Assembly: GCA_011524535.1 (NCBI GenBank)
Contig: WTKD01000006.1
Coordinates: 167,601 to 231,600 of the forward strand
Direction: 5' to 3'
Source: Spirochaetaceae bacterium
Lineage (GTDB): Bacteria; Spirochaetota; Spirochaetia; WTKD01
Length of the DNA stretch: 64,000 bases
Shown: piece after piece, positions 33,409-63,876 of the stretch
Layout: the number at the start of each line of letters is the position of its first letter
Numbering within the stretch: position 1 is the stretch's first letter
Translations under genes and position numbers: made by a program
Notes under the pieces: generated by a model
What the model saw: the letters and a program-made list of their open reading frames with translations, nothing else
Databases searched by the model: none
Told to the model about the DNA's origin: nothing

Positions 33409-35091
33409 CTACTTTGTACGCATCTTTTCTATACCGTTCCAGCTTTTTCGAGGTGGTGTAACAAGGTATTTTTCAGCTCGTGTGAGGAAGATATCTATCA
33501 AAATATCGTCCGGTGCGATCGTTTTTGCCTTTTTTAGATTCTTTATGGTTTCTGAAAATTCCTGTTGGTAATAATGCGTAAGACCTGAATGATAGTGTTT
33601 CCAGACCTCTTCGGTTTCTTTATCTATTGATTTTTGGGTTGTGTAGATTCGTTCACCTTGGGTTTTACCCTTTACCTGCACTATATCAACCATTCGGCAT
33701 GGATATATATCCTTTATTCTCTCAAATACCGAATCGGAGAACAAAAGAGGGGTCCCATATAGTTTCGTAAGCGATTCAAGACGGGCTCCTAGGTTAACGG
33801 TGTCTCCTATAACCGTATAGTCCATCTTTTTCTCACTTCCAATGTTTCCAACCGTTACCTTTCCATAGACAATTCCCATGCCCGTTATAAACTGAGGAGC
33901 TTTACTTTGTTTTTGGTGGGTATTAAACTTTTCAAGAGCTTCTTGCATGTTCAACGCGGCTGTAATAGCGTTCTTAGGTGAGTTTTCTAAGTGGTTTGGG
34001 GCGCCAAATATTGCCATAATTGCATCGCCAATGTATTTATCAATAATTCCCTCTTCTGCCATGATGATATCAACCATTGTGCCATAATAGCTATTCAAAG
34101 AGGTGACCAATTCTTCTGGGGGCAATGATTCAGAAATGGTTGTAAAACTTCGAATATCGGTGAACATCACGCTAAGATCCCTGTTTTCACCGATAAGCAT
34201 TTTTTCTGGATTTTCAAAGATGCTATCTATGACATTGCTCGGAACATATTTCTGAAAGATGTTTCTTACTTTTGATTCATTCCTCTTGGCTATTACAGCA
34301 TTCAAGGCATAGTTCTTTATTTGTGAATATGCTTTGTCCAATTCCTCGGTCATCACGTTGAATGTGTGTGCCATTTGACCAAATTCATCATTTTCCTGTA
34401 CTTCTATTTTTGTTGAAAGGTCATTGTTACGTATAATCGAAAGCATTGCCGCGACGGTGTTTCTTAACGGTCTGATCGTGTATTCAATAAATATCAAAGA
34501 GAGGATAAGCATTGCGGAAAGTGAGATCATAGTGATGATACCCGCCTGGGTGGTTATCTCTTGTGCGTCTGCGTAAAATGTGTTGTACTCCTCTGAAACA
34601 ACTATCAACCAATTGAGGGGCATGAATTTAAAGACCTGGGCAGTTCTTCTCTTGCCCTCCAACATTATTTCTTGCCATCCGACATTCTCTTCGGTATATT
34701 TCAGTCCTAAGTCATTTAGAACTTCTTCGGAGAGAGAGGAGTCAGGATAGGTGGAAAAAGCAACGGTCGTTTCGTTCTCGGAAACTTCAAAGGCATAAAT
34801 TACCTCGGTGTCGTTTTGGAGTAGGGTGTTAGCATACGAAGCGATGGCCAGCTCTGCAGCCCCCACAAAGTCTTCATCGTTTGTAAAACCGTTTTTTTCG
34901 AGAATATCCCATTGGTTTTGGGCATATTTGTTTAATTCCAATGCTTTAAAAGCAAGCGCATCAATCGCAACTCGTGTAATTCCATTTCTTGCGGATACGG
35001 AGGCAAAAAAGGTTATGACCACGGTTGTAGCCATTTGTAGAGGGATAATAACCAGTAGTAGTTTCCACTTTATACTTATTTGGCGTTTCAT
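33409..35091 (-). CDS. Class III adenylate/guanylate cyclase with extracytoplasmic sensor and HAMP domain
   Basis: Two TM segments flanking a Cache-like region; HAMP; catalytic FTDIRSFTTISE, DKYIGDAIMAIFG, MDYTVIGDTVNLGARLE. Confidence 0.92.
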   Translation of the reverse strand: MKRQISIKWKLLLVIIPLQMATTVVITFFASVSARNGITRVAIDALAFKALELNKYAQNQWDILEKNGFTNDEDFVGAAELAIASYANTLLQNDTEVIYAFEVSENETTVAFSTYPDSSLSEEVLNDLGLKYTEENVGWQEIMLEGKRRTAQVFKFMPLNWLIVVSEEYNTFYADAQEITTQAGIITMISLSAMLILSLIFIEYTIRPLRNTVAAMLSIIRNNDLSTKIEVQENDEFGQMAHTFNVMTEELDKAYSQIKNYALNAVIAKRNESKVRNIFQKYVPSNVIDSIFENPEKMLIGENRDLSVMFTDIRSFTTISESLPPEELVTSLNSYYGTMVDIIMAEEGIIDKYIGDAIMAIFGAPNHLENSPKNAITAALNMQEALEKFNTHQKQSKAPQFITGMGIVYGKVTVGNIGSEKKMDYTVIGDTVNLGARLESLTKLYGTPLLFSDSVFERIKDIYPCRMVDIVQVKGKTQGERIYTTQKSIDKETEEVWKHYHSGLTHYYQQEFSETIKNLKKAKTIAPDDILIDIFLTRAEKYLVTPPRKSWNGIEKMRTK

Positions 35092-59794: not shown

Positions 59795-60376
59795 TTAGAC
59801 TAAATCACACGCTTCGGGAGGCATCCAGTGATGGTCTTTCCCATTCCATTTTACATTACAACCGATAGGGTTTGTTAATTGGATTCTTGGCTGTTTTTTT
59901 GCGACAAGGTCAGAAAGAACAAGATCGAGGGTGAATTTTTTAGAAAGTTGGGCATTTCTGGGGTTGTCTACGGCTTGCCCACAATAAACCAGAGTTCTAG
60001 ATGTGTCAAAAACGAAAAAATGAGGCGTACGTAATGCACCATAGATGCGTGCTATCTCTTGAGATTCATCATATAAGTAAATCCACGGGAATGTGTATTT
60101 TTCCATACGTGCTACCATATGATCAAAACTATCTTCAGCGTATGTGTTTTTTGAATTGCTATTAATGGCAACAAATCGAACCCCTTGGGGAGCAAATGTC
60201 TCTGCACTTCTTCGGGTATCTTCGTCCGATCCGGTTACATAGGGACAGTGATTACAAGAGAAAAAAATAACAAGGATTTTTGCGTCTGAAAATGATTCGA
60301 GCGTGTACGAGTTTCCGTCGGTTGCGGGGAGAGAGAAGTTAGGAGCTTTTGATCCAATTGCTAATGTAAAGGGCAT
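59795..60376 (-). CDS. Thioredoxin-fold redoxin (AhpC/TSA-like) protein
   Basis: [65 protein letters not shown]. Confidence 0.85.
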
Positions 60377-60440: not shown

Positions 60441-61583
60441 ATGTGGTTACGTTTTATTATCTGGTTTAAAACTTCACGTTTCGCGATTTTCTTGTATTTT
60501 TCGGCTATCGTTCTCCTTGTTAGTGGGGTTATTGTGTTGATTGAATCAGCTGAAAACAATATGTTTCGGACATTTGGAGATGGATTATGGTGGGCGATTG
60601 TGACTTTGAGCACAACTGGATATGGTGACTTAATTCCAGTAACAAGAAGCGGGAGAATTATCGCAGCGATGCTCATCCTTGTTGGGGTTGTAGGAACCAG
60701 CGTGTTTTCTGGATATTTTGCTTCCTTATTGGTGGAGAGAAGAACTACATATAGGAGAGGACTTATGCAAATTAATCTGATAAAAGATCATATTGTTATA
60801 TGTGGATGGAGAGGAACGGAGATGCCGGGATTTGTAAGTCGTGTGCTTGTACAGAACGAAAATATATCAGCAAGGCAATGTGTTGTAATTACATCGGTCG
60901 ATCCATCGCAATTTGATGAATGCTATAGTATCCCTGAATTGAAAGAACTACGATTTGTGCATGGAGATATCTTTTCGGAAGAAACGTTAAAACGTGGAAA
61001 TGTAAGCAAAGCAAGGAAGGTTATTGTTATACCCGAACCCGAAGTGTCTGGCGCAGAAAGCGACTCCCGTGTGATTATGACGGTTCTTGCATTACGTAGT
61101 ATTTCTCGAGACGTATATATCATCGCTGAACTGAATGACGTTCAATATGCTGATCAGCTTCGAAGAGCAGCCTGTGACGAAGTAATTTTTTCTAAAGAAG
61201 TCCAGCAAAATATAGTCGCCTGCGCCTCTCGAACCGTTGGGTTGAGTAATATCGTGCTTGAATTACTCTCACGAGAAGGAGAGGCTCATTTTAGTACCGA
61301 GCGTATCGCAGATAAATACATTTCGGGTACATTTAAAGCGTTTAGGCTTCAGTTTTCACACGATTCGCGATTAGTCCTTGGTGTTCTCGAACATTCGGGT
61401 AATCCAGCTCTCATGAAAATGAACGCTATACGAGAAGCCCAAAAAACAGCGAATACATCACAATTGATAGATAATCTCACCCAAGTGCGCACGCTTCGTG
61501 TGCATAATCCTGTTTTTTTGCCGGATGATTCGTATATTATCAAACCCTATTCGCGTGTAATGTATGTGGAGCGGAATACATGA
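60441..61583 (+). CDS. Two-TM potassium channel with TrkA-N/RCK domain
   Basis: TM1, pore helix and filter GLWWAIVTLSTTGYGDLIPVT, TM2, then HIVICGWRGTEMPGF (RCK nucleotide-binding fold). Confidence 0.92.
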   Translation: MWLRFIIWFKTSRFAIFLYFSAIVLLVSGVIVLIESAENNMFRTFGDGLWWAIVTLSTTGYGDLIPVTRSGRIIAAMLILVGVVGTSVFSGYFASLLVERRTTYRRGLMQINLIKDHIVICGWRGTEMPGFVSRVLVQNENISARQCVVITSVDPSQFDECYSIPELKELRFVHGDIFSEETLKRGNVSKARKVIVIPEPEVSGAESDSRVIMTVLALRSISRDVYIIAELNDVQYADQLRRAACDEVIFSKEVQQNIVACASRTVGLSNIVLELLSREGEAHFSTERIADKYISGTFKAFRLQFSHDSRLVLGVLEHSGNPALMKMNAIREAQKTANTSQLIDNLTQVRTLRVHNPVFLPDDSYIIKPYSRVMYVERNT

Positions 61584-62077
61584 ACATAGAAGAATTTTTT
61601 CAAAACATACAACAGGTATCCTTTTTTAAGGGATTGCTTAAGAATGAAGAATTTCTTGACAGATTACACTCCTATTGTAAAAAGAAAATATTTCCGATCA
61701 ACGATGTTATAATTCATGAGGGTGAGAGAGGTGGGACAATGTACATGGGCATATCCGGGTCGATAGAAGTCAGCAAAATGACAAGAGCTGGGGATATTTT
61801 TACATTGAGCCCATCCTACAACGCTTGCGGAGTAACTTTTGGGGAGTTATCCATGATAGACAATGTTAAACGATCGGCCACGGTTTCTGCGACGTCAAGG
61901 AGCGAGTTCTATACTATTGAAAAGAAATTTTTTGAAGCCCTGTGTAGGGATTTTCCAAATGAAGGAATGCTTATTATGGAAAAACTTGCCCGGAGGTTGT
62001 CGGGCTATCTTCGAGAAACCAATGATAATATGCTCGCTTTATTCGATGCACTTGTTGACGAAGTAAAGTATTCGTAA
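61580..62077 (+). CDS. Stand-alone cyclic-nucleotide-binding (CNBD/Crp-fold) protein without DNA-binding domain
   Basis: INDVIIHEGERGGTMYMGISGSIEVSK; phosphate-binding-cassette-like FGELSMIDNVKRSATVSA; 165 aa, no HTH; ATGA overlap with the channel gene. Confidence 0.9.
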   Translation: MNIEEFFQNIQQVSFFKGLLKNEEFLDRLHSYCKKKIFPINDVIIHEGERGGTMYMGISGSIEVSKMTRAGDIFTLSPSYNACGVTFGELSMIDNVKRSATVSATSRSEFYTIEKKFFEALCRDFPNEGMLIMEKLARRLSGYLRETNDNMLALFDALVDEVKYS

Positions 62078-62091
62078 CGCTATTCTAAGAA

Positions 62092-63876
62092 TTACCATCC
62101 ACCAAAGAGAGGAGCCTCTCCTAAATCTTCGAGATTAGTATCAAGTACATTGCTCCTTCGCCCCTCTAAACTAATATCGAGTATTCTCATTGAGGTATAT
62201 TGCTCGCCGTTGAACGTCACTCCTCCATATGCATTTTCTACAAACCTGCTTCCCGATATGAGTCCAAACGAATTTGAATCTCCGCTAATCCTGCGAACAC
62301 TGACATTGTATTCTATCGTGTTATCTGTTGTGACAAGTATGCCCATATTCCTATTACCCACAATGCCTCCTCCGTAACTGAGAGAAGTTATGTAGACAGG
62401 AAGAGTTATTTCCCCTACGTTGCCAGAAGCGATTACTCCGCCGTGCATAACTCCGACCATGCCCCCAACATTATTTCCAGTTTCACTGGTCAGTGATCCA
62501 AGTGATACATTGTGTTCAAGGGTTCCGCTGATCATTTCTCCGACTATTCCACCGACATTATCCGAATGTGAGATGATCGTTCCAGAATTGGTGTTTTGTG
62601 AAAGTATTCCGTTGTCCATTATGCCAATAATGCCACCGATTCCGTCGCCTTTTCCATCCAGAACTCCTAGGTTATTGTTCCCTTCGAGGAAGGTTTCGGT
62701 GCCGACGAATAGTCTTCCAAGTATTCCGCCGCCAGCCCCTTGTGATACGAGTATGGCACCTTTGTTTGTGCTGTTTCGTATTGCACTTTGTTGGTACATA
62801 GAGCCAGCTATACCACCGATGTTTTCTTTTTTTGTACTAATAGAACCTTCATTCGTAAAGTTTGTTATGGTTCCACTGATAAATAGACCTGCGGCGCCTC
62901 CGGTATTGAATATTTCACTGTAAATTCTCCCTTTGTTTGAGCTGTTCGATATAGTTCCGGTCAGCGCTAATCCCACAACCCCTCCAATGCCAACAACTCT
63001 TTCAGAAGAAATTCTAGATGTTTGTATAGTGGCTTCATTTCTTACCGTGTCTAGTCTACCGGTTTGTATCCTCCCAACGATGCCACCAACATGCTCTAAG
63101 CCACGTACCGTTCCACTAACCGATATAGATTGAATTATTCCATTCATCAATAACCCAGATATAGCACCGACACTTGTGTGTCCTTCTATTACTACATTTT
63201 CAAGGGCTAGATCTGTTACGATAGGAGCCTCGGGGTTATTTGCTTCGACGATTTCGAATAACCCAGAAGCGGCTCGAGAAGGACCGATATTATTCACATA
63301 TAAATCGGTTATTTTCTTATCATTTCCGTTAAATACGCCTGAAAAAGCATTGTACACGGCATAATCTGTAAATGATCCAATCGGTTCGTATTCGGGCAGA
63401 GAAACTCGATGTTCCTTATTGCATAACAACTGAGGCATGTGGATATCTTCTGTGAGGATGTATTTCCCTGCGAGGACACTTGATTGATAGTCGATACTTG
63501 CGGTAGATGAAATGATTCGAATGTCTTCTGTTTCTGTCATTTCTTTCCAGGTCTCTGCTGTTACGTTTGAGTATACGATCAAGATAGGTCCACTGGAAGC
63601 TTCTCCGAGGAGTTGTAGTTCTTTCCAATCTGAGATTTCTATACCGGCATTATCTGCTCCCCAGTTATTTTCACGCCATGATCTTATCGTTTCGTATTGA
63701 TATTGTGGGGTGTATTCCAATAATTCTTCTAGGCAGTATTCGCTATTAATTCCAGGGGAGCGAAGAGTTGCACCGATATCTCCTATGGTCATATCGGTGC
63801 ATGAAATCGAAAATACTGCTTTTATGCAAATCAAAATCGCTGTGAACATTGATCGCATTTTTCCTACGATACGCAT
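62092..63876 (-). CDS. GLUG-motif repeat surface/secreted protein
   Basis: Many GGIVG/GGIIG/GGMVG repeats alternating with NxG(x)I strands; FSGVFNGNDKKITDLYV; possible lipobox SISC; C-terminus PLFGGW. Confidence 0.85.
   Translation of the reverse strand: MRIVGKMRSMFTAILICIKAVFSISCTDMTIGDIGATLRSPGINSEYCLEELLEYTPQYQYETIRSWRENNWGADNAGIEISDWKELQLLGEASSGPILIVYSNVTAETWKEMTETEDIRIISSTASIDYQSSVLAGKYILTEDIHMPQLLCNKEHRVSLPEYEPIGSFTDYAVYNAFSGVFNGNDKKITDLYVNNIGPSRAASGLFEIVEANNPEAPIVTDLALENVVIEGHTSVGAISGLLMNGIIQSISVSGTVRGLEHVGGIVGRIQTGRLDTVRNEATIQTSRISSERVVGIGGVVGLALTGTISNSSNKGRIYSEIFNTGGAAGLFISGTITNFTNEGSISTKKENIGGIAGSMYQQSAIRNSTNKGAILVSQGAGGGILGRLFVGTETFLEGNNNLGVLDGKGDGIGGIIGIMDNGILSQNTNSGTIISHSDNVGGIVGEMISGTLEHNVSLGSLTSETGNNVGGMVGVMHGGVIASGNVGEITLPVYITSLSYGGGIVGNRNMGILVTTDNTIEYNVSVRRISGDSNSFGLISGSRFVENAYGGVTFNGEQYTSMRILDISLEGRRSNVLDTNLEDLGEAPLFGGW

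Follow-up and report, generated by a model that had tools for sequence, protein, structure and literature searches.

A predicted 2TM-RCK potassium channel paired with a separate cyclic-nucleotide-binding protein in spirochaetes and several other phyla

To our knowledge, the bacterial cyclic-nucleotide channels known so far carry their sensor and their pore on one chain. SthK and MloK1, for example, place the cyclic-nucleotide-binding domain (CNBD) on the pore chain behind a six-transmembrane channel and contain no RCK domain. The locus considered here has in common with them a K+-type pore, a CNBD with a conserved cassette and spirochaete hosts, but its CNBD is a separate protein, not covalently fused to the channel, and its pore is of the 2TM-RCK type. 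MthK and the other 2TM-RCK channels, with two transmembrane helices, a K+ filter and a cytoplasmic RCK domain, are the best match to this channel in both sequence and structure; the present family differs from MthK in having a near-obligate CNBD partner gene and a hairpin insert in the C-lobe of the RCK domain. A soluble ligand-binding regulator encoded apart from the membrane K+ pathway is also the design of KtrAB and TrkAH, but in those systems it is the RCK that is made as a separate protein, and it binds ATP or ADP, whereas here the RCK belongs to the pore chain and a CNBD is the detached part; regulation of KtrAB through separate RCK subunits is described in PMC12059179.

We describe the pair from a 64,000-nucleotide stretch of contig WTKD01000006.1 of a Spirochaetaceae bacterium (hereafter, the window). 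It is a real and widely conserved arrangement of known modules that is apparently undescribed: full-text search of the open-licence literature returned fused CNBD channels, MthK and KtrAB, and no description of a channel paired with a free CNBD. A near-obligate split pair present in several phyla would add another design for ligand-gated channels and, in spirochaetes and predatory bacteria, would connect the signals of class III cyclases with the flow of ions. A detachable sensor would also help to study the way in which a pore is driven by CNBD and RCK modules, and the pair, compact and with one soluble partner, would be easily tested.

The two genes in the window and their predicted products

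The preliminary description of this DNA had read here a two-TM channel with an STTGYGD filter and a TrkA-N/RCK domain, ending in an ATGA overlap with a 165-residue soluble protein that is only a CNBD. Both reading frames and the overlap lie where they had been placed (Table 1), and Pfam bore out the domain assignments, giving Ion_trans_2 (2.4e-14), Slo-like_RCK (8.6e-13) and TrkA_N (3.3e-10) for the channel and cNMP_binding alone (2.5e-13) for the smaller protein.

Table 1. Coordinates, within the window, of the channel-CNBD pair and its features.
Feature	Position	Strand	Basis
2TM-RCK potassium channel gene, 380 aa, predicted MthK-type fold	60441..61583	+	ORF, Pfam, PDB match, AF2/Foldseek
Selectivity filter STTGYGD, residues 57-63	60609..60629	+	sequence
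RCK N-lobe, residues 115-250	60783..61190	+	Pfam Slo-like_RCK 115-228, TrkA_N 148-250
Family-specific insert in RCK C-lobe, predicted helical hairpin, residues 318-355	61392..61505	+	AF2 helices 322-334, 339-350
ATGA stop/start overlap of channel and CNBD genes	61580..61583	+	sequence
Gene for free CRP-like cyclic-nucleotide-binding protein, 165 aa	61580..62077	+	ORF, Pfam, AF2/Foldseek
Phosphate-binding cassette FGELSMIDNVKRSATVSA, residues 87-104	61838..61891	+	sequence
Predicted long CNBD C-terminal helix, residues 126-164	61955..62071	+	AF2/DSSP, 39 residues

The two transmembrane helices, the K+ filter and the RCK domain behind them place the channel among the MthK-like 2TM-RCK channels. 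MthK is its PDB sequence match (4e-16), and the AF2 model built from the family alignment, which is confident (mean pLDDT 93.9), placed MthK first in Foldseek (8djb, 2.8e-19); by analogy, the protein would form a K+ pore gated via its RCK domain. The Ca2+ site of MthK (D184, E210 and E212), a regulatory feature of MthK rather than one common to all RCK channels, is not retained as such when the family is aligned to MthK: the equivalent of E210, E230, is kept in 169 of 178 relatives, the E212 position is mostly Leu or Ile, and D184 falls in an alignment gap. This pattern would be compatible with a site that binds something other than Ca2+, without proving such a ligand.

MthK has an internal RCK start, which gives a free RCK, and the window carries at 60750-60770 a strong Shine-Dalgarno-like AGGAGAGG ahead of an in-frame ATG (Met109), as if for the same purpose. 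Because Met stands at this position in only 39 of 178 relatives, we rejected such a start as a family feature.

The AF2 model of the CNBD protein, likewise built from the family alignment, is also confident (mean pLDDT 93.9), and CRP/CAP-type proteins ranked first in its Foldseek search (4ev0, 1.2e-12); the CNBDs of SthK and MloK1 are among its sequence matches. The predicted CNBD fold and the Glu and Arg of the cassette, which reads FGELSMIDNVKRSATV, place it among the cNMP-binding domain proteins. CRP/CAP shares with it the closest fold, including the R-S-A cassette type, but the present protein is linked to a channel gene and is not a free regulator with a DNA-binding domain. Pfam found no HTH DNA-binding domain in the window protein, so that it lacks the C-terminal HTH of CRP/FNR transcription factors, and a single long helix closes the model; among 78 CNBD relatives, Pfam found nothing further but two isolated weak matches. 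This C-terminal helix, one of the better conserved CNBD segments, might possibly serve in dimerisation or as a contact helix.

The four-base overlap of the two genes recurs in 34 of the 183 paired relatives described below, and translational coupling through the ATGA is plausible. Upstream of the pair lies a redoxin gene (59795-60376, minus strand); downstream and convergent with the pair is a gene for a 594-residue protein (62092-63876, minus strand) to which the Glug motif is assigned by a marginal match. Since both neighbours lie on the opposite strand to the pair, the two genes form a unit by themselves. We rejected a reading as a Pycsar-type defence system, since PADLOC matches cover the CNBD alone; the genes beside the pair, for the redoxin and the Glug-motif protein, supply neither a Pycsar effector of the TIR or TM kind nor a PycC cyclase.

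Linkage of channel and CNBD across phyla

The neighbourhood search for conserved pairs that the preliminary description had suggested gave a clear answer. Among 60 relatives in a first survey, the best CNBD match adjoined nearly every strong channel match. An extended survey took in 395 class and 247 phylum members, the class to which a Bdellovibrio record belongs, genomes sampled from the family Lachnospiraceae, and a scan with named records over 84,980 species; removal of duplicates left 189 distinct full-length family channels, and, with two at contig ends set aside, 187 were assessable downstream. A CNBD gene lies directly downstream on the same strand at 183 of these 187, a count of related, non-independent sequences, and the argument rests on the breadth of phyla and the changing flanks. 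Weak or broken CNBD copies stand at two of the 187 (L146 and L253); the exceptions are L136 and L223, the latter with its CNBD upstream in an array. Fusion of channel and CNBD, sought as Rosetta-stone evidence, was found in none of the 183 pairs.

Of the named loci, 78 of 80 are paired, and at the other two (L213 and L228, both Spirochaetota) the fetched sequence ends inside the channel gene. The named pairs come from at least six phyla, namely Spirochaetota, Bdellovibrionota, Desulfobacterota (Thermodesulfobacteriota), Fibrobacterota, Cloacimonadota and Bacillota, with phylum labels that are doubtful for one 'Streptomyces' bin and some 'Deltaproteobacteria' records. The pair is present in 15 of 144 genomes from the class of the Bdellovibrio record and is rare in the Lachnospiraceae sample (1/199). 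Upstream neighbours at four scanned loci belong to unrelated families (a response regulator with Hpt, OmpA, Lgt and an M42 peptidase), so that the linkage cannot be put down to general synteny. Ordinary 2TM-RCK channels, including several from pair-bearing genomes, have no adjoining CNBD (0/6 in the first set). The linkage of channel and CNBD is far beyond chance. At one Treponema locus (L150) the channel and CNBD genes have both decayed together, which we counted in favour of the two acting as one complex.

The paired channels also have about 38 additional residues inserted between two strands of the RCK C-lobe, for which AF2 predicts two helices. Searched with a profile of this insert, 181 of 183 CNBD-paired channels gave a match, and the remaining two have visibly divergent versions; among 38 unpaired channels, 36 are without the insert. 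On a tree of pore and RCK N-lobe columns, however, the association of insert and CNBD amounts to one gain and one loss, and although both independent contrasts are co-changes (2/2; sign test p=0.5), the association is suggestive and not significant by this measure. Residue-level DCA on 178 paired sequences (Meff 135) gave output dominated by noise. Partial distance correlations were 0.42 between the insert and CNBD residues 68-86 and 0.33 between the insert and the end of the C-helix, a weak signal because the pore filter and the C-helix, at 0.35, score comparably. A long CNBD loop accompanies 33/33 long-insert versus 5/145 short-insert channels; like the distance correlations, this correlated indel points at the insert but is confounded by clade. 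We propose that the hairpin would be the docking site of the CNBD. In tandem loci of gut Treponema, the first channel copy has lost the insert and is without a CNBD of its own, while the channel copy after it keeps the insert and, except at L136, has the CNBD as well.

Proposed cyclic-nucleotide sensing and gating scheme

The cassette Glu and Arg noted earlier in the window protein are kept in 162 and 174 of 178 aligned CNBDs, respectively; a further 13 have Asp at the Glu position (Glu/Asp 175/178), and the residue following the Arg is Ser or Thr in 173. The resulting family pattern, G-E-x(n)-R-S/T-A, is typical of cyclic phosphate binding. In complete Treponema-type genomes (L019, L020, L096 and L097) the paired CNBD has lost the cassette residues, with FGKAALLGEDFHGSSV in L019 and L020. 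Such destroyed cassettes with the pair retained amount to three distinct Treponema-type sequences (FGKAALL...FHGSS), and the CNBD may therefore also have a ligand-independent role.

As to the source of a ligand, the class III cyclase suggested in the preliminary description at 33409-35091 is real (PF00211, 1.4e-21, with HAMP; minus strand) and sits about 25 kb from the pair; the source genome has four PF00211 matches. Within the 395-genome class sample, where a strong channel match defines a pair-bearing genome, every one of the 96 pair-bearing genomes encodes at least one PF00211 cyclase, compared with 153 of the 299 that lack the pair; the difference is confounded by how large and complete the genomes are and by phylogeny. 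The conserved cassette together with this co-occurrence is consistent with a cNMP sensor.

We consider it probable that the two proteins form one complex, in which the CNBD acts in trans as an obligate subunit and puts the 2TM-RCK channel under the control of cAMP or cGMP. In this scheme, four copies of the 2TM-RCK protein would form the K+ pore and, in the cytoplasm, an RCK assembly, and the CRP-like CNBD would be an obligate soluble regulatory subunit seated on the RCK C-lobe, probably via the hairpin. Class III cyclases would supply cAMP or cGMP, binding of which would alter the CNBD, and the RCK domain would pass this change on, opening or closing the pore. We infer the contact and its docking site, the ligand, the direction of gating and the stoichiometry alike. 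The earlier proposal of a cNMP sensor acting as a separate subunit thus stands as far as a separate, near-obligate and unfused partner (183/187) with a conserved cassette (178 CNBDs) is concerned, and its action on the pore is the probable part. The more specific picture of a cross-phylum channel family, in which a separate CRP-like sensor docks on the C-lobe hairpin and RCK gating is rewired to cNMP in trans, we offer tentatively, as one that may be right but may slightly more easily prove wrong.

The persistence of linkage in the three Treponema-type sequences with a destroyed cassette is what would be expected if the CNBD were an obligate assembly or stabilising subunit, with cyclic-nucleotide binding not the main signal. 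We regard this as unlikely, considering that ~98% of the 178 sequences across phyla retain the cassette Glu/Asp and Arg and that every sampled pair-bearing genome has a class III cyclase. Let us assume, instead, that the two proteins are merely co-expressed for one response, such as osmotic or K+ homeostasis, and never touch, the CNBD acting on some other target; operon linkage is by itself no proof of contact, and residue-level coevolution was dominated by noise. This is rather improbable in view of the near-absolute linkage across several phyla with changing flanks, a CNBD without a DNA-binding or enzymatic domain of its own, and the absence of the insert from channel copies that lack the CNBD.

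The sensor might also gate the channel in response to a ligand other than cAMP or cGMP, be it another cyclic mononucleotide or a small molecule. Folds of the CRP/FNR type have elsewhere been turned to the binding of other ligands, and the Bacillota members of the family are far from typical cAMP users; the conserved G-E-x(n)-R-S/T-A cassette and the class III cyclases in all sampled pair-bearing genomes nevertheless make this very improbable compared with the cAMP- or cGMP-gated complex that we prefer.

Variant members of the family

The filter is of the T-x-GYGD type in most of 178 relatives and degenerate in 16. Degenerate filters (FA-AYFD, FA-NYFE, LAGNDY) with the CNBD kept are seen in gut Treponema (L121-L124, L126, L130, L132, L138, L219 and L221) and in Lachnospiraceae and relatives (L225-L227, L229 and L230). 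Because of this degeneracy, with an AGN type that resembles the CASTOR/POLLUX filter, these members may not be K+ selective. CASTOR/POLLUX/DMI1 channels are likewise RCK-gated, and 10 of 79 family members give a weak Castor_Poll_mid match, with the AGN-type filter in some Bacillota members; the similarity is weak only, however, and the window channel has a K+ filter. We know of no CNBD partner for CASTOR/POLLUX/DMI1.

Tandem duplications (L105, L106, L132, L135, L138, L219, L221 and L224) take the form of channel-CNBD-channel-CNBD, or of a channel that has lost the insert followed by channel-CNBD, and suggest possible heteromeric channels. At L024 (204-1926, minus strand), in a complete genome, a pore ORF, an RCK ORF and the CNBD follow one another with a four-base overlap at each junction, which may reflect either a genuine channel in three parts or a frameshift. 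The Cloacimonadota array at L223 (500-5050) holds three channel-like genes and two CNBDs, and one of its channels, without most of the RCK, retains the tail of the C-lobe insert.
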